The notes beneath the pieces are model-generated. The model was not told the origin of the DNA and did no database searches. It was given only the letters and a program-made list of their open reading frames with translations. From Halomonas aestuarii (GTDB lineage: Bacteria; Pseudomonadota; Gammaproteobacteria; Pseudomonadales; Halomonadaceae): a stretch of DNA of 64,000 bases. The stretch's first letter is position 1; each line of letters starts with the position of its first letter. The position numbers and the translations under genes were made by a program. Below, in pieces: positions 7,474 to 63,659 of the stretch. The DNA is taken from assembly GCF_001886615.1 (NCBI RefSeq), contig NZ_CP018139.1, positions 3,472,001 through 3,536,000 of the forward strand. Reading direction: 5' to 3'.

Positions 7474-7550
7474 CGGAGCGTGGCGCAGCTTGGTAGCGCG
7501 TTGCAATGGGGTTGCAAAGGTCGCAGGTTCGAATCCTGTCGCTCCGACCA
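7474..7550 (+). tRNA. tRNA-Pro (anticodon GGG)
   Basis: The 77-base cloverleaf has acceptor stem CGGAGCG/CGCTCCG, discriminator A and an encoded CCA. The D-arm reads GCGCAGCTTGGTAGCGC, the anticodon stem TTGCA/TGCAA has loop ATGGGGT (anticodon GGG), and the T-loop reads GGTTCGAATCC. It decodes CCC. It borders an AT-rich accessory region, so it may be an integration site, although no duplicated 3' end was found in this window. Confidence 0.97.
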
Positions 7551-56304: not shown

Positions 56305-56988
56305 TCAGGGGTGGGCGTGCCGCCCGAGAGATTCGGCGGCGTGATCGGGATGGCGAACCCCGCACCCCTTGATGACCACCCGGGTCAGGAAGTCGGTGAT
56401 CTGCTCCAGGTCGTCGTCGCGCAGGGCATCACGCCCGGTGATGCCCAGCACCTGGGCCTCGAAGTCGGCGTAATGCTGGGTGGACGACCAGATCAGGAAG
56501 ATCAGCCAGACCGGGTCGACCGGATCCATCAGGCCCCGGTCGGCCCACTCCCGGAACACCGCCGCACGGCTCTGCACCCAGTCGCGCAGCTCACCGCGCA
56601 GGTACTCCTGCAGGAAGGGTGCCCCGCCGAGAATCTCGCTGGCGAAGAGCCGCGACCCCTCGGGGTGAAGGCGGGACATCTGCATCTTGGAGCGGATGAA
56701 GGCGGAGAGCACCTCGGCCGGGTCGTCCTCCGCGGAGATGTCGTCGAGCATCGCGTTCCAGCGTTCCATCATGCGCTCGAGCAGGCGGACATAGAGCTTG
56801 CGCTTGCTGCCCATGTAATAAAGGACGTTGGACTTCGGCAGGCCAGCCTGCTCGGCGATTTCCTGGAGACTGGTCCCGCGATAGCCATGCCGAGCGAAGA
56901 CGCGTTCCGCCGCCGCCAGGATCGCCTGCTCGTTGCGCCGTCGAATGGCGCCACCTTCCTGCTCGCTTGGGTGTTCTGGCTTGGCCAT
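56305..56988 (-). CDS. TetR/AcrR family regulator, RutR-like
   Basis: The 227-residue protein has a TetR helix-turn-helix (ILAAAERVFARHGYRGTSLQ, EIAEQAGLPKSNVLYYMGSK) and a RutR-type C-terminal domain (FIRSKMQMSRLHPEGSRLFA, IFLIWSSTQHYADFEAQV). RutR senses uracil or thymine and controls pyrimidine and purine breakdown. The gene diverges from xdhA, and a RutR-like palindrome lies in the shared gap at 57239. Control of purine oxidation is therefore likely; the effector may be a purine here. Confidence 0.9.
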   Translation of the reverse strand: MAKPEHPSEQEGGAIRRRNEQAILAAAERVFARHGYRGTSLQEIAEQAGLPKSNVLYYMGSKRKLYVRLLERMMERWNAMLDDISAEDDPAEVLSAFIRSKMQMSRLHPEGSRLFASEILGGAPFLQEYLRGELRDWVQSRAAVFREWADRGLMDPVDPVWLIFLIWSSTQHYADFEAQVLGITGRDALRDDDLEQITDFLTRVVIKGCGVRHPDHAAESLGRHAHP

Positions 56989-57113
56989 GGGCCCTCACTG
57001 CTCAAGATACGCACGCGTCGGCCACGAGCTTGCCTGATAGCCGAGCCACAAGGCAATTCGGCATTGGATCATCGCGATACCGGCAACGGAAGAAACACCG
57101 GAGGCAAGTCGAA

Positions 57114-57189
57114 GAGGAGGTCCTACGCCAGGGAGGGCGTCGGTAGCGCTCAGGGACGAGTTCACAGCGCCTCCTCAATGGTCCGGCAC
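57114..57189 (+). ncRNA. Candidate purine-sensing riboswitch in the xdhA leader (copy A)
   Basis: An RNA element is shared with 62154-62229. Stem P1 is GAGGAGG (57114-57120) with CCTCCTC (57170-57176). Hairpin P2 is ACGCC with GGCGT around AGGGAG (57125-57140). A short hairpin P3 is CTC/GAG (57149-57160). Conserved single-stranded parts are GTAGCGC and TTCACAGCGC, and AATGGTCCGGCAC follows P1. All three stems differ in copy B but still pair. Location before xanthine dehydrogenase suggests a purine ligand, as in the xanthine (NMT1) class, but the class is inferred. Confidence 0.6.
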
Positions 57190-57228
57190 CCCGGGACTTG
57201 TCTTCGGAGAGAAAAAAAGCGTCATGAC

Positions 57229-57257
57229 TTGTAAAAGCTGACCACCAGGTCAAGAAT
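57229..57257 (+). promoter_or_regulatory. RutR-like operator within a candidate promoter for xdhA
   Basis: TGACCA, a CC spacer and AGGTCA (57239-57252) make a palindrome close to the RutR consensus half-site TGACCA. It lies between TTGTAA (57229) and AAGAAT (57252), which have 17-base spacing like -35 and -10 boxes. Repression by the divergent RutR-like protein is likely. If this promoter is used, the RNA element at 57114 would lie upstream of it, so a second promoter further left must exist for that RNA. Confidence 0.5.
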
Positions 57258-57307
57258 TGAGACATCCCCTGAGACTTCGGCCAACACAACCATAAACGGA
57301 GCCGACC

Positions 57308-58801
57308 ATGATCGACTTCTACCTCAACGGCAGGCGTCAGCGATGCACCGATGTGAGCGCCGACACCAGTGCCCTCGAGCTGCTGCGCGAGACGCTGGGC
57401 CAGACCGGCACCAAGGAAGGCTGTGCCTCCGGCGACTGCGGGGCCTGCACCGTGGCCATCGGCGAGCCGGATGCCGCCGGTGAGCTCGTCTATCACAACG
57501 CCAACGCCTGCATCACGCCCGCCCACCAGCTCGAGGGCTGCCATCTGGTGACCGTCGAGGGCCTGGCCCGGGGCGAGCGACTGCATCCCGCCCAGGCGGC
57601 CATGGTCGACTGCCACGGCAGCCAGTGCGGCTTCTGCACGCCGGGCATCGTGATGTCGCTGTTCACCCTCTACGAGCACCAGCGCCGCCACCCCGCCCCT
57701 CTGACCCAGGCGCGCCTGGAGGACGCCCTGGGCGGCAACCTGTGCCGCTGCACGGGCTACCGGCCAATCCGTGACGCCGCGCTCGGCATGGGCGACTATC
57801 CGGCGGCCGACCCCGAGTGGGCCGAGGATGCCACGCTCGCCGGCCACGTCGCCGAACTGCGCAGCGCCGACGACGCGCCGGAGGCAGCGGGTCACTACCG
57901 CGTACCCCGGGACCTGGCCGAGCTGCGCGCCCTGAAGGCCAATCATCCCGGCGCCCGACTGGTGGCCGGCGCCACCGATCTGTGGCTCGAGACCACCCAG
58001 CAGCTCAAGGCGCTCGATGATCTCATCGACGTGCGCCGGGTCGCCGAGCTGAACGCCGTCGAGGAGACCTCCGAGGGCTGGTGGATCGGCGCCGCCGTGA
58101 CGCTCGCCCGGCTGACCCCGCTGCTGGCCGAGCCCTACCCGGCCTTCGAGCACCTGATGCACCGCTTCGCCTCCTCGCAGATCCGCAACCGCGCAACCCT
58201 GGGCGGCAACATCGCCAACGCCTCGCCGATCGGCGACACCCCACCGGTGCTGCTGGCCCTCGACGCCCGGCTGCGCCTGGACGGCCCGCGGGGTGAGCGG
58301 GAACTGCCCCTGGCGGACGTCTTCCTCGACTACCGACACACGGCGCTGGCCGAGGACGAGTTCATCGCCGCGATCTTCCTGCCCAGGCCCATCCATGGTC
58401 AGCACCTCAAGGTATGGAAGCTCTCCAAGCGGCGGGAAGACGACATCTCGGCGGTGCTGGCTGCCTTCGCCTGGCGCCTCGAGGACGGCGTGATGCGCGA
58501 CGTCCACCTGGCCTTCGGCGGCATGGCGGCGATCCCCCGCCGGGCACCGGCCGCCGAGGCCGCCCTGGAGGGGCGCGCCCCCGACGTCGAGGCCTTCGCC
58601 GCCGCCCGAGCGGCCCTGGCCAAGGAACTGACCCCGATGTCTGATGTGCGCGGCAGCGCCGAGTACCGGCGCCTTGCCGCCGGCAACCTGCTGGATCGGC
58701 TGCGCCTGATGATCGCCACCGAACGCGGCCCGGCCGAGGGCGGCCCGGCTGACCACCACGATCCTGCGACCAAGGTGACCCTCGATGCGTACGCTCACTG
58801 A
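57308..58801 (+). CDS. xdhA: Xanthine dehydrogenase small subunit
   Basis: This 497-residue subunit carries the two [2Fe-2S] clusters (CASGDCGACTVAIG; CGFCTPGIVMSLF with GNLCRCTGYRP) and the FAD domain (GATDLWLETTQQL; FASSQIRNRATLGGNIANAS). It passes electrons from the molybdenum subunit to NAD. The stop overlaps the start of xdhB by 17 bases. GGAG lies seven bases before the ATG. The enzyme oxidises hypoxanthine to xanthine and xanthine to uric acid. Confidence 0.96.
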   Translation: MIDFYLNGRRQRCTDVSADTSALELLRETLGQTGTKEGCASGDCGACTVAIGEPDAAGELVYHNANACITPAHQLEGCHLVTVEGLARGERLHPAQAAMVDCHGSQCGFCTPGIVMSLFTLYEHQRRHPAPLTQARLEDALGGNLCRCTGYRPIRDAALGMGDYPAADPEWAEDATLAGHVAELRSADDAPEAAGHYRVPRDLAELRALKANHPGARLVAGATDLWLETTQQLKALDDLIDVRRVAELNAVEETSEGWWIGAAVTLARLTPLLAEPYPAFEHLMHRFASSQIRNRATLGGNIANASPIGDTPPVLLALDARLRLDGPRGERELPLADVFLDYRHTALAEDEFIAAIFLPRPIHGQHLKVWKLSKRREDDISAVLAAFAWRLEDGVMRDVHLAFGGMAAIPRRAPAAEAALEGRAPDVEAFAAARAALAKELTPMSDVRGSAEYRRLAAGNLLDRLRLMIATERGPAEGGPADHHDPATKVTLDAYAH

Positions 58802-61241
58802 CATTGCCCAAGACGCCTCCCGGAGCAATCAGGGCGACGCGCCGCTGGCGAGGGAGGCCGTCGCCCCCCGGGGAGGCCCCGGCGCCTCCCGCGCCCACGA
58901 CAGCGCCATCAAACACGTTACCGGCCGCGCCGCCTACATCGATGACATCCCGAGCCCCGCCGATACCCTTCACGTGGCGCTCGGCCTGTCGCCGACGGCC
59001 CATGGCCGCCTGACCCGACTGGACCTGGAGAAGGTCAGGGCCGCACCGGGCGTGGTGGACGTGATCACGCTGGCCGACATCCCCGGCCACATCGACATCG
59101 GCCCGGTGTTCCCCGGCGACCCGCTGTTCGCCGACGACGAGATCAGCTACGTGGGCCAGTGCCTGTTCGCCGTGGCCGCCGAGAGCCACCGGGACGCCCG
59201 CCTGGCGGTGAAGGAGGCGGTGGTCGAGATCGACGAGCGGCCCGCCTCCCTGGACCCGGTCGCAGCCGCCGAGCGCGGGGAGTTCGTGCGCCCCACCCAC
59301 GTCCACGAGCGAGGCGACTGGCAGCAGGCCCTGGATGACGCGCCCCACGTCCTCGAGGGCGAGCAGTTCGTCGGCGGCCAGGAGCACTTCTACCTCGAGG
59401 GCCAGGCCTGCCTGGTCCTGCCCACCGAGGACGAGGGCGTGATCATCCATACCTCCAACCAGCACCCCAGCGAGACCCAGAAGCTGGTGGCGGAGGTGCT
59501 CGGGATCCCCTTCCACGCGGTGACGGTGGAAGTGCGCCGCATGGGCGGGGGCTTCGGCGGCAAGGAGACCCAGGCCTCCCCCTGGGCCTGCATCGCCGCC
59601 CTGCACGCGAGACGCACCGGCCGGGCCACCAGGATTCGCCTGCCCCGCGCCGAGGACACCCGCGCCACCGGCAAGCGTCACCCCTTCCACAACCGCTACC
59701 GGCTCGGCGTCGACGCCCGGGGCGTGCTGGCCGGCGGCGAGATCACGCTGATCGGCGACTGTGGCTATTCGCCGGACCTGTCAGATGCCATCGTCGACCG
59801 CGCCATGTTCCATGCCGACAACGCCTACTCGCTGGGCGCCGCCCGGGTCACCGGGAAGCGCGCCCGCACCCACAAGGCCTCGAACACCGCCTTCCGCGGC
59901 TTCGGCGGCCCCCAGGGCATGATGATCATCGAGCGGGCCATGGACGACATCGCCCGGCACCTGGGCGAGGACCCGCTGACCATCCGCAAGCGCAACCTCT
60001 ATCGCACCAAGGACCCGGATGGCACCCCCCGGGACGTCAGCCACTACGGCCAGCGGGTCGAGCAGCTCTCGCTGCTGCAGGACATCGTCGCCCGGCTGGA
60101 GGAGAGCAGCGACTACTGGGCGCGCCGGCGCGAGATCGCCGCCTTCAATGCGCAAAGCCCGGTCATCCGGAAGGGGCTGGCGCTGACCCCGGTGAAGTTC
60201 GGTATCTCCTTCACCGTCCAGCACCTGAACCAGGCCGGCGCCCTGCTGATCGTCTATACCGACGGCAGCGTGATGATCAACCACGGCGGCACCGAGATGG
60301 GCCAGGGGCTGCACACCAAGGTCTGCCAGGTGGTGGCCCGGGAGCTGGGCCTCGACCTGGCGCGGGTGCGCATCACCGCCACCCGGACCGACAAGGTACC
60401 CAACACCTCCCCCACCGCCGCCTCCAGTGGCGCCGACCTCAACGGCCAGGCCGCCCGGGATGCGGCCAGCAAGCTGCGCGAGCGGCTGTTCGACTTCGCC
60501 GCCACGCACTTCGATCGCGAGGCCGGCGGGCTGGACCGCGAGGCCATGCGCCTGGAGGACGGCCACCTGGTGGCGGGCCTCGGCGAGGACGAGACGCGCA
60601 TCCCCTGGGGCGAGCTCGTCCAGGCCGCCTACATGGCCCGGGTCTCACTCTCCGAGAAGGGTTTCTACGCCACCCCGCTGATCCACTACGACCGCGCCAC
60701 CGGCCGTGGCCGGCCCTTCTACTACTACGCCTTTGGGGCCGCCGTGGCCGAGGTGGAGGTGGACACCCTGTCCGGCGAGTACCGGCTGAGCCGCGCCGAC
60801 ATCCTCCACGACGTCGGCGACTCCCTGAACCCGGCCATCGACATCGGCCAGATCGAGGGCGCCTTCATCCAGGGCATGGGCTGGCTGACCAGCGAGGAGC
60901 TCAGGTGGAACGACGCCGGCCGGCTGGTCACCGACGGCCCGTCCACCTACAAGATCCCGGCCTTCGGCGACCTGCCGCCGACCTTCAAGGTCGACCTGCT
61001 CCAGGGGCACCCCAACTCCCGGGCCAGCCTCTACCGCTCCAAGGCCGTGGGCGAGCCTCCGTTCATGCTCGGCATCTCGGTGTGGTCGGCGCTGCGCGAT
61101 GCCCTGGCGAGCCTCGCCGGCTACCGGGTGAGTCCGGCACTCGACACCCCCGCCACCCCGGAACGGGTGCTGATGGTCGCCGATGCGCTGCGCCGAACCC
61201 AAGACGCGTCCCCGACGAGGCCCGACCATGCCCCTGTCTGA
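58785..61241 (+). CDS. xdhB: Xanthine dehydrogenase molybdenum-binding subunit
   Basis: This 818-residue subunit binds molybdopterin and holds the active site. GQCLFAVAAES, VEVRRMGGGFGGKETQAS, SNTAFRGFGGPQGMMIIE, GGTEMGQGLHTK and the catalytic Glu in KAVGEPPFML are all present. It overlaps xdhA upstream and xdhC by 14 bases downstream, so the three are translated together. Confidence 0.96.
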   Translation: MRTLTDIAQDASRSNQGDAPLAREAVAPRGGPGASRAHDSAIKHVTGRAAYIDDIPSPADTLHVALGLSPTAHGRLTRLDLEKVRAAPGVVDVITLADIPGHIDIGPVFPGDPLFADDEISYVGQCLFAVAAESHRDARLAVKEAVVEIDERPASLDPVAAAERGEFVRPTHVHERGDWQQALDDAPHVLEGEQFVGGQEHFYLEGQACLVLPTEDEGVIIHTSNQHPSETQKLVAEVLGIPFHAVTVEVRRMGGGFGGKETQASPWACIAALHARRTGRATRIRLPRAEDTRATGKRHPFHNRYRLGVDARGVLAGGEITLIGDCGYSPDLSDAIVDRAMFHADNAYSLGAARVTGKRARTHKASNTAFRGFGGPQGMMIIERAMDDIARHLGEDPLTIRKRNLYRTKDPDGTPRDVSHYGQRVEQLSLLQDIVARLEESSDYWARRREIAAFNAQSPVIRKGLALTPVKFGISFTVQHLNQAGALLIVYTDGSVMINHGGTEMGQGLHTKVCQVVARELGLDLARVRITATRTDKVPNTSPTAASSGADLNGQAARDAASKLRERLFDFAATHFDREAGGLDREAMRLEDGHLVAGLGEDETRIPWGELVQAAYMARVSLSEKGFYATPLIHYDRATGRGRPFYYYAFGAAVAEVEVDTLSGEYRLSRADILHDVGDSLNPAIDIGQIEGAFIQGMGWLTSEELRWNDAGRLVTDGPSTYKIPAFGDLPPTFKVDLLQGHPNSRASLYRSKAVGEPPFMLGISVWSALRDALASLAGYRVSPALDTPATPERVLMVADALRRTQDASPTRPDHAPV

Positions 61242-62106
61242 ACAACGTCCTGAACCCTGGCACGCGGCGCTGGATCGCCTGCAGCGCGGGGCACGCCCGC
61301 ATGCGCTGGCAAGCATCGTGGGTGTGGCGGGCTCCACCCCCCGGGAGCCCGGCGCCAAGATGGTGATCACCCCGGAGGCCGTCCATGACACCCTGGGCGG
61401 CGGCACCTTCGAGCTGCAGGTCATCGAGACCGCCCGGGAGGCCCTCGGCCGGGGCGACGCCGGCACGCGGCTGGAGGCCTTCCCCCTGGGCGGGCGCTCC
61501 GGCCAGTGCTGCGGCGGCTACGTGCACGTGCTGATCGAGCTGTTCGCCGGCGCCGAGATGACCGTGGCGCTGTTCGGCGCCGGCCACGTGGGCCAGGCCC
61601 TGGTCGAGGTGATGGCGCCACTGCCCTGGCGGGTGCTGTGGTTCGACAGCCGCGAGGACGCCTTCCCGGACACGCCCCCCGAAGGCGAGCGCGTGCGCCG
61701 TCGGCGCATCGCCCCCGGCGCCGAGGGCCCCCGGGTAGAGGCCGCCGTGAACGGCCTGCCCGCGGGCTGCCACGCCCTGGTGATGACCCATGACCACGCC
61801 GAGGACCGCGCCCTGGTCGATGCCCTGCTGCGTCGCGGCGACTGCGCCTCCATCGGCCTGATCGGCTCGCACAGCAAGTGGGCAAGCTTCCGCCGGCGGC
61901 TCGACGAGGCCGGCCACGATGAGGCGGCGCTGGCCGGGGTACGCTGCCCCATCGGCGTGCCCGGCGCCGTCGGCAAGCGGCCCTACGAGATCGCCCTGGC
62001 CGTGGCCGCGGAGCTGCTGACCATCAGGCCGGCGCCCGAGCGGGCCGACCGCCGCGGCGTGCCCGCCGAGACCCTGCGCGAGACCTTTTCCCCTTCACGG
62101 GACTGA
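61228..62106 (+). CDS. xdhC: Xanthine dehydrogenase accessory protein
   Basis: The 292-residue protein loads sulfurated molybdenum cofactor into the enzyme. An N-terminal XdhC-CoxI motif (ASIVGVAGSTPREPGAKMVI; GRSGQCCGGYVHV) is followed by a Rossmann-like domain (VALFGAGHVGQALVEVMAPL; SIGLIGSHSKWASFRRRL). The ATG at 61228 is within xdhB. The stop precedes the second RNA element by 48 bases. Confidence 0.95.
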   Translation: MPLSEQRPEPWHAALDRLQRGARPHALASIVGVAGSTPREPGAKMVITPEAVHDTLGGGTFELQVIETAREALGRGDAGTRLEAFPLGGRSGQCCGGYVHVLIELFAGAEMTVALFGAGHVGQALVEVMAPLPWRVLWFDSREDAFPDTPPEGERVRRRRIAPGAEGPRVEAAVNGLPAGCHALVMTHDHAEDRALVDALLRRGDCASIGLIGSHSKWASFRRRLDEAGHDEAALAGVRCPIGVPGAVGKRPYEIALAVAAELLTIRPAPERADRRGVPAETLRETFSPSRD

Positions 62107-62153
62107 GCGCACATGGCGACAGGCCGGCGAGATGATCGCCAGGGACAGGCGGC

Positions 62154-62229
62154 GCGAGGGTCTTTTGCCGGGGATGGCAAAAGTAGCGCCCATGGAGGGG
62201 TTCACAGCGCCCTCGCAATGGTCCGGCAC
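62154..62229 (+). ncRNA. Candidate purine-sensing riboswitch in the guaD leader (copy B)
   Basis: P1 is GCGAGGG (62154-62160) with CCCTCGC (62210-62216); P2 is TTTTGCC with GGCAAAA around GGGGAT (62163-62182); P3 is CCC with GGG (62189-62200). The parts outside stems match copy A: GTAGCGC, TTCACAGCGC and the following AATGGTCCGGCAC are identical, and the P1-to-GTAGCGC distance is 23 in both. It lies between xdhC and guaD, 108 bases before guaD, and lets guaD respond separately from xdhABC. Confidence 0.6.
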
Positions 62230-62336
62230 TCCGGAGCCTGTCGATGGAACAGCTCATCACGTGCCAAGCAATGAAAGACACTTTAAATCAGTTGTTTCTT
62301 GAGCACCGGCCAAGCCGATGCTGAATGGAGAGAGTC

Positions 62337-63659
62337 ATGAACGACCCCCGACCCCATGTGCGCGTCCTGCGCGGTCCCCTGCTGAGCTTCGACGCCGACC
62401 CGGGCGACGGCGACACTCCGGCGCCGGGGAGCGTGCGTCACCTGGAGGACGGTGCCCTCTGGCTGGTCGACGGCCAGATCCACGCCGTCGCCGACTACGC
62501 GGCGCTGGCGCCCCACCTGCCGTCGGACATCGAGGTGGTGGACTACTCGGGAAAGCTGATGCTGCCGGGGTTCATCGACAGCCATGTGCATTATTCGCAG
62601 CTGGACATCATGGCCTCCTACGGCCGACAGCTGCTCGACTGGCTCAACGACTACACCTTCCCCGAGGAGTGCCGCTTCGCCGAACGCGCCCACGCCGAGG
62701 CCGTCACCGACGCCTTCCTCGACGAGATGCTCAGGGTCGGCACCACCACCGCCCAGGTCTTCTGCTCCAGCCACCCGGTCTCGGTGGACGCCTTCTTCAC
62801 GGCCTGCCGCCGACGCGGCCTGCGCATGCTCGCCGGCAAGGTGCTGATGGACCGCCATGCCCCCGAGGCGCTCCGTGACGACACCCTGGGCGGCATCCGG
62901 GATACCGAACGACTGATCGGCGACTGGCACGGCAGGGGCCGGCTCGGCTACAGCCTGACGCCGCGATTCGCCCCCACCTCCACCCGGGCGCAGCTCGATG
63001 CTACCGGGGCACTCTTGCGCAACGACCCGAGCCTTTGGCTGCAGACCCATCTCGCCGAGAACACCGGCGAGCTCGACTGGGTGGCCGAGCTCTTCCCGGA
63101 GAGTCGCGACTACCTGGAGGTCTATGAACGGTCGGGCCTGGTGGGGCCCCGCAGCACCTTCGCCCACGGCATCCACCTCGACCAGGAGATGCGCGGACGC
63201 CTGGCGGCCCGGGGGGCCAACCTGGCCTTCTGCCCCAGCTCCAACCTCTTCCTCGGCAGCGGCCTGTTCGACCGGCTCGCCGCCCGGGAGGCCGGCCTGG
63301 CGATCAGCTATGCCAGCGATGTCGGCGGCGGGACGGACCTCTCGGGACTGGCCACCCTCAAGGCCGCCTACCAGGTCGGCCAGCTGCGCGGACAGCCGCT
63401 CACGGCCTGGCAGGGCTTCTACGGGCTGACGCTGGGCAATGCCAGGGCGCTGTCGCTGGACGAGCGGATCGGCCGGTTTGCCCCCGGCATGGAGGCGGAT
63501 CTCGTGGTGCTCGACCCGGCCGCCACCCCGCTCATGGCGAGGCGCACGGCGCGCAGCCGGAGCCTGGCCGAGATGCTCTTCGCGATGATGATGCTGGGCG
63601 ACGACCGGACGGTGGCCGAGACCTGGGCGGCGGGACGGCCGGTGCACCGCCGGGGGTGA
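62337..63659 (+). CDS. guaD: Guanine deaminase
   Basis: The 440-residue amidohydrolase converts guanine to xanthine, the substrate of xdhAB. Zn-site motifs are present: GFIDSHVHYSQLD, WLQTHLAENTGEL, FAHGIHLDQEM and SYASDVGGGTDLS. The GuaD-type NDYTFPEE segment follows the first motif. The ATG at 62337 has GGAGAGA six bases upstream; the ATG at 62325 has no ribosome site. Confidence 0.96.
   Translation: MNDPRPHVRVLRGPLLSFDADPGDGDTPAPGSVRHLEDGALWLVDGQIHAVADYAALAPHLPSDIEVVDYSGKLMLPGFIDSHVHYSQLDIMASYGRQLLDWLNDYTFPEECRFAERAHAEAVTDAFLDEMLRVGTTTAQVFCSSHPVSVDAFFTACRRRGLRMLAGKVLMDRHAPEALRDDTLGGIRDTERLIGDWHGRGRLGYSLTPRFAPTSTRAQLDATGALLRNDPSLWLQTHLAENTGELDWVAELFPESRDYLEVYERSGLVGPRSTFAHGIHLDQEMRGRLAARGANLAFCPSSNLFLGSGLFDRLAAREAGLAISYASDVGGGTDLSGLATLKAAYQVGQLRGQPLTAWQGFYGLTLGNARALSLDERIGRFAPGMEADLVVLDPAATPLMARRTARSRSLAEMLFAMMMLGDDRTVAETWAAGRPVHRRG

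Follow-up and report, generated by a model that had tools for sequence, protein, structure and literature searches.

The question raised by this locus is why two copies of one structured element stand beside the purine-oxidation genes xdhA and guaD in a 64,000-nt stretch of Halomonas aestuarii DNA (contig NZ_CP018139.1, positions 3,472,001 to 3,536,000; hereafter the window), and whether the element senses a purine, as an earlier note on the same DNA had proposed in suggesting a riboswitch for xanthine, guanine or urate. We are confident that it is not a purine riboswitch but a mobile palindromic repeat, to which the xanthine link is incidental. It is probably a distant variant of the Yersinia repeat YPAL/RU-2, of which the head carries two tandem putative sites of the CsrA/RsmA type. 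Searches were performed with a covariance model (R1) built from three copies, namely the two in the window and one from another genus; since R1 favours its own loops, loop counts were taken from patterns in which the six loop bases were left free. In the window, R1 found the two copies and three chance-level matches (E, 0.21 to 0.46). The copies are composed as follows.

57098..57207, +, element copy 1, a folded palindrome in the xdhA leader (R1 match 57104-57207, 123.2 bits; sequence in the R1 seed)
57098..57110, +, copy 1, 5' arm of the outer stem P0, pairing with 57195-57207
57195..57207, +, copy 1, 3' arm of P0 (predicted fold)
57114..57120, +, copy 1, 5' arm of P1, with the 3' arm at 57170-57176 (motif check, covariation and fold)
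57125..57140, +, copy 1, P2 hairpin with the hexaloop AGGGAG at 57130-57135 (fold)
57149..57160, +, copy 1, P3 hairpin with the hexaloop AGGGAC at 57152-57157 (fold)
57161..57169, +, copy 1, conserved strand TTCACAGCG, comprising the TTCAC bulge and the proposed lower strand of P3
57183..57194, +, copy 1, P4 hairpin (fold), absent in the short form of the repeat
62144..62247, +, element copy 2, in the gap between xdhC and guaD (R1 match 62145-62247, 114.9 bits; sequence in the R1 seed)
62154..62160, +, copy 2, 5' arm of P1, with the 3' arm at 62210-62216 (motif check and covariation)
62163..62182, +, copy 2, P2 hairpin with the hexaloop GGGGAT at 62170-62175, not canonical, the first A being replaced by G
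62189..62200, +, copy 2, P3 hairpin with the canonical hexaloop ATGGAG at 62192-62197
62222..62235, +, copy 2, P4 hairpin (predicted fold)

The element is dispersed over the genome. In the organism's own genome (3.54 Mb), R1 matched at least 36 places at E<=1, of which at least 34 reached E<=0.01 (150 of 282 first-look candidates scored). A sample of the family gave R1 matches in 195 of 250 genomes, covering 15 of 24 genera; in a sample of the order, 68 of 244 genomes were matched (best 15 or 16 matches per genome considered). The copies in the own genome adjoin unrelated genes, for example those that we take, from their N-terminal sequences, to be pyrG, leuD and leuB. In the context table of this genome (32 rows representing 30 distinct copies; gene calls home-made), 20 of the 30 copies were in the sense orientation and 6 were antisense to both neighbours; many of the sense copies begin about 30-45 nt past a stop codon. 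In a scan of named genomes, 134 of 135 copies fell outside called genes. As for mobile DNA, a pattern of the Yersinia type matched one viral contig, itself Ysr224 (the Rfam family of the Yersinia repeat; see below), and a search with copy 1 matched one plasmid record, a 1.8-Mb Halomonas replicon; copy 2 had no match among phage records.

Two loci (L069 1501-1604 and L042 1501-1595) hold copies within a long open frame of the home-made gene caller, which could be intragenic insertions or miscalls, and six tandem copies with a spacing of about 228 nt were seen at L064 359-1589.

Insertion polymorphism was directly visible at xdhA. Of 90 genomes of the genus, 84 have the gene; the 30 best-matching loci were fetched, and R1 matched upstream of xdhA in two of them, the other 28 giving no upstream match at E<=0.01. 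Seven aligned relatives have the same xdhA flanks without the approximately 135 nt that hold the element; the flanks of these empty sites are too diverged for a target duplication to be read. As for guaD, which 87 of the 90 genomes have, R1 matched in 15 of 30 fetched loci, 8 in the sense and 7 in the antisense orientation. Note that R1 can overlook decayed copies in such loci; a degenerate composite copy, below the R1 threshold, is visible in the alignment of one guaD locus (L320).

A purine-sensing leader was rejected because the element is absent from most xdhA orthologs and inverted in about half of the guaD carriers. The covariance-model search thus yielded no conserved association with purine genes. 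Nor did cmscan give any riboswitch family up to E=10 for either copy, although the NMT1/xanthine family, which the earlier note had named as a possible class, is presumably in the Rfam library. What the element has in common with the NMT1/xanthine riboswitch is the purine-oxidation context in this window; elsewhere it is not tied to purine genes. Thus, while the presence of two copies within one purine-oxidation locus speaks for a xanthine, guanine or urate riboswitch, this explanation is extremely improbable for a high-copy element beside unrelated genes, and the two copies look like a coincidence together with a frequently targeted gap. A nitrogen regulon, suggested by a copy beside a nirB-like gene, was also considered and was dropped as the neighbours proved diverse.

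Composite copies, in which the 5' part of P1/P2 is replaced, were seen in three guaD leaders (L316, L318 and L320) and near 1450-1600 of L092 and L093; an extra hairpin lies alongside, with a GGA loop or its reverse complement.

The structural part of the earlier note stood up well. GTAGCGC, the other motifs and the stem arms were found in both leaders where it had placed them, and P1, P2 and P3 differ in sequence between the copies, yet pair in both. It had overlooked the outer stem P0 (13 bp at xdhA, 7 bp at guaD). The third copy, from a different genus of the family, lies upstream of a gene that we take to be nirB from its N-terminal sequence, and its stems pair as well. In a hand-made structure over these three sequences, 92.6% of the cells were paired, and 9 of the 27 pairs changed on both sides (shuffled mean, 3.3; 0 of 500 shuffles reached 9), which supports a structured, covarying element. 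The minimum-energy fold of the xdhA copy holds all five stems of the model, and a short stretch of the guaD copy (62150-62245) folds as proposed. A longer guaD stretch favours a different fold (-55.2 versus -43.2 kcal/mol), and since the z-scores against shuffles are also mixed (0.89 and 0.05 for xdhA; -1.56 and -2.92 for guaD), the case for structure rests on covariation, not energy.

The relation to YPAL/RU-2 was indicated by Rfam. With the gathering cut-off, a tRNA gene at 7474-7547 was the sole cmscan match in the window. Below the cut-off, both copies matched Ysr224 (RF02770) best, on the opposite strand, with 16.3 and 14.1 bits against a cut-off of 70; of 20 distant loci, 11 gave a sub-threshold match to Ysr224 on the strand opposite to the element. 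Sub-threshold matches to animal microRNA hairpins were also seen and were treated as hairpin noise. With Ysr224, a locus of Yersinia similis that the head pattern had retrieved (L183) scored 126.5 bits and a viral contig (L453) 133.9, and eight other loci in the same test stayed below the cut-off. The YPAL/RU-2 repeats of Yersinia are treated by Delihas 2007 and, reportedly, by De Gregorio 2006, which is cited by Delihas. The RU-2/YPAL sequence printed by Delihas contains the same head as the element (PMC2759123). YPAL/RU-2 is described as a mobile repeat of about 168 bp whose insertion duplicates 3-26 bp of target at or near a dyad symmetry (PMC2229807). YPAL is counted among the structured repeat families of Y. 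pestis by Cozzuto 2008 (PMC2267715), which also has Pseudomonas families, and Ysr224 is among the most frequently annotated small RNAs (PMC9029176).

The element has in common with YPAL/RU-2 the P2 hexaloop hairpin, the P3 hairpin with an ANGGAN loop and a TTTAC bulge (TTYAC in general), and dispersed, intergenic, mobile copies; in the two-hairpin head, only the P2 loop of the guaD copy deviates, at its first base. The window copies differ in length (about 110 nt folded, or about 135 nt as the xdhA alignment gap, versus 168) and, unlike YPAL/RU-2, have the GTAGCGC linkers and P4. Because the head is common to both but the Rfam cut-off and the length are missed, we regard the window elements as a distant YPAL/RU-2 variant. 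ERIC, REP/BIME and other palindromic repeats are likewise high-copy and intergenic; their cores presumably differ from that of the element. In the literature searched, no title concerned the element itself and no paper combined CsrA and YPAL.

The feature that suggests a function is the pair of hexaloops. In 250 distinct contexts, P3 loops sought as N6 read ANGGAN in 244, and positions 2 and 6 used all four bases. For P2, which was outside the search pattern, ANGGAN was found in 171 of the 193 best hexaloop hairpins among 241 contexts (shuffled, 0 of 65); 9 of the 250 contexts lacked full flanks and 48 of the 241 lacked a hexaloop hairpin, and these were dropped. Pairs 2-4 from the loop used all four Watson-Crick types in 77 distinct P2 arms; because the P2 hairpins were picked by their ability to pair, how often they pair cannot serve as a test. 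A position coupled across the TTCAC bulge was C-G in 176 contexts, G-A in 72 and others in 2, these counts being set partly by the search pattern (the named-genome scan fixed the P3 stem letters); the same C-G/G-A coupling was seen, with a few exceptions, in two pattern scans in which these letters were not fixed.

The published high-affinity Csr/Rsm site consists of a hexaloop, ANGGAX, that sits directly on a stem whose closing pair is C-G; in the solved complexes, its N and X bases vary and are looped out (PMC4005645). Three of the four window loops fit ANGGAX on a C-G-closed stem, the exception being P2 of guaD. What is new here is that the two ANGGAN hexaloop hairpins of the head, closed by C-G, have the published form of this site.

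Constraint on the loops was measured in one related genus (eight genomes; 80 of 100 R1 places fetched). Of 30 loci with the gltD-pyrG gap, only 4 had the core there, and a set matched by flanks was therefore used. R1 served to find and align the copies, and pairing them by both flanks gave 23 cross-genome pairs at 19 sites (a second match in L447 was dropped, and the P2 loops of 12 of the 23 pairs were left out, at least one copy having another loop length). Over all 23 pairs, 26 of 68 comparisons differed at loop positions 2 and 6, against 1 of 136 at positions 1, 3, 4 and 5; when each site was represented by a single pair, the figures were 22 of 56 and 1 of 112 (Fisher p ~2e-11). This pattern is what recognition by CsrA would predict, given the looped-out, variable N and X of the complexes. 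In the stems P0 to P3 of the same pairs (model-fitted alignment), both sides of a base pair had changed with pairing kept 28 times, one side 10 times, and there were 6 changes to or from an unpaired state. In model-fitted alignments, G.U occurred 63 times versus 21 for A.C and 77 for other mismatches.

In one related genus, 21 of 81 R1 matches hold a further palindromic insert of about 51 nt in the P2 loop, after its GG (140-nt forms: L387 601-740, L427 601-740, L407 601-740, L391 601-741 and others). A second small element seems to target the P2 loop, because the insert is in one copy only in 9 of the 23 ortholog pairs.

The family extends over the Gammaproteobacteria. The P3 pattern with six free loop bases matched 32 of 274 genomes sampled from the class (31 of 222 genera; reversed control, 0), and 15 of 299 sampled from the phylum, all of which belong to the class (control, 1 match). 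One 5.1-Mb genome (G730, locus L116) had 462 exact matches of the free-loop P3 pattern. Among the matches listed for a narrower pattern in named genomes (80 of at least 119 stretches) were Stenotrophomonas, Marinobacter, Rheinheimera, Idiomarina, Methylomicrobium, Ectothiorhodospira, Alcanivorax, Shewanella, Yersinia and others. A match to csrA (PF02599) was obtained in the Halomonas aestuarii genome and in 42 of the 45 genomes positive for the pattern; as csrA is near-universal in the class, its presence in the host is a weak test. One genome (G264, L249) had nine csrA-like matches and 35 pattern matches.

Judged from sequence, it is thus rather probable that the head binds CsrA as RNA; that such binding is useful to the host we consider less probable. 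Each copy consists of a long outer stem bearing the conserved two-hairpin head, and RNA of the GGA strand would offer two tandem CsrA/RsmA-type sites, each an ANGGAN loop directly on a C-G-closed stem. If the transcripts bind CsrA, the copies would enlarge the genome-wide pool of CsrA sites, and they may make the RNA in which they lie more or less stable. The sponge RNAs CsrB, RsmY and RsmZ likewise have several A(N)GGA hairpin loops, a CsrB-type sponge being a small RNA with a promoter and a terminator of its own and many GGA hairpins in a single molecule; the element differs from them in having two sites per copy and many dispersed copies, and gave no Rfam match to them. TwoAYGGAY RNA (RF01731), discussed for Clostridia, did not match the element with cmscan either. 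More tentatively, and with rather less than an even chance in our estimation, tens to hundreds of double high-affinity CsrA/Rsm sites per genome may have been brought into Gammaproteobacteria by a mobile repeat family and be kept there by selection at individual positions. If this were true, a transposable element would have built a distributed CsrA sponge and new members of the CsrA regulon; repeat number would shift free CsrA, and an insertion would rewire regulation. Apart from this, a false riboswitch lead is removed, a known Yersinia repeat is tied to a family across the Gammaproteobacteria, and the family gains a testable function, the spreading of sites for a global post-transcriptional regulator.

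Several observations weigh against the interpretation as a repeat carrying CsrA sites. The named set was nearly balanced, with 32 sense and 27 antisense copies in co-directional gaps (28 of the 135 elements, at locus edges, had no class), and the P3 loops fit in all 32 sense copies and in 26 of the 27 antisense ones; at six antisense-side ortholog sites, 0 of 36 comparisons had changed at the fixed bases and 7 of 18 at the free ones. Therefore, selection via the sense mRNA of the neighbours cannot explain everything; the retention of the loops implies either that the GGA strand is produced by read-through or antisense transcription, or a role as folded DNA, or mutual overwriting of copies. Rfam Ysr224, derived from a Yersinia RNA, models the strand opposite to the GGA strand of the element. 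No csrA was found in 3 of the 45 carriers, two of which are incomplete and one 98% complete (G677). The ortholog loop test drew on copies of the related genus, the window copies being outside it, and the P2 loop of the guaD copy begins with G. A longer guaD stretch favours a different fold (-55.2 versus -43.2 kcal/mol), and since the z-scores against shuffles are also mixed (0.89 and 0.05 for xdhA; -1.56 and -2.92 for guaD), the case for structure rests on covariation, not energy.

The orientation-independent conservation of the loops, together with dispersal and insertion polymorphism, would also be expected if the palindrome acted at the DNA level, a transposition or recombination enzyme recognising the folded single-stranded head via its loops and any RNA role being incidental; YPAL, too, is described as mobile and as duplicating its target (PMC2229807), which points the same way. 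Copies at rest would not be expected to show constraint on the loops at orthologous sites across species, except where overwriting is frequent, and no obvious transposase was found by eye among the 25 largest similarity clusters (up to 6 members) of 446 proteins within 1.5 kb of copies at 153 loci, these clusters looking like unrelated housekeeping genes. We consider this explanation unlikely, yet one to be taken seriously.

The position of the copies, 134 of 135 outside called genes and many own-genome sense copies shortly after a stop codon, fits a 3'-end mRNA stabiliser or a processing or termination element, in which a long hairpin would block exonucleases without a particular loop-binding protein, and YPAL has been proposed to act on upstream transcripts (PMC2229807). 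Such a hairpin would leave unexplained the near-invariant A, G, G and A in two loops beside the free positions 2 and 6, as well as the own-genome copies antisense to both neighbours, and we hold it to be quite improbable. Targets of ANTAR antiterminators (NasR/NasT type) are paired hexaloop hairpins with A1 and G4, and the element has two such tandem hexaloops and one copy upstream of the nirB-like gene. This reading is weakened by the diversity of the neighbours and by G3 and A5, which are conserved no less strictly than A1 and G4; it seems very improbable.

As for the genes around the two window copies, which lie outside the elements, Pfam gave xanthine dehydrogenase domains, XdhC and an amidohydrolase consistent with GuaD.

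57308..58801, +, xdhA (Pfam)
62337..63659, +, guaD (Pfam amidohydrolase; name from the earlier note)
56305-56988, divergent, TetR-family regulator gene adjoining xdhA, with a YcdC-like C-terminal domain (Pfam)

The divergent TetR-family regulator is a more plausible controller of the xdhA locus than the repeat.

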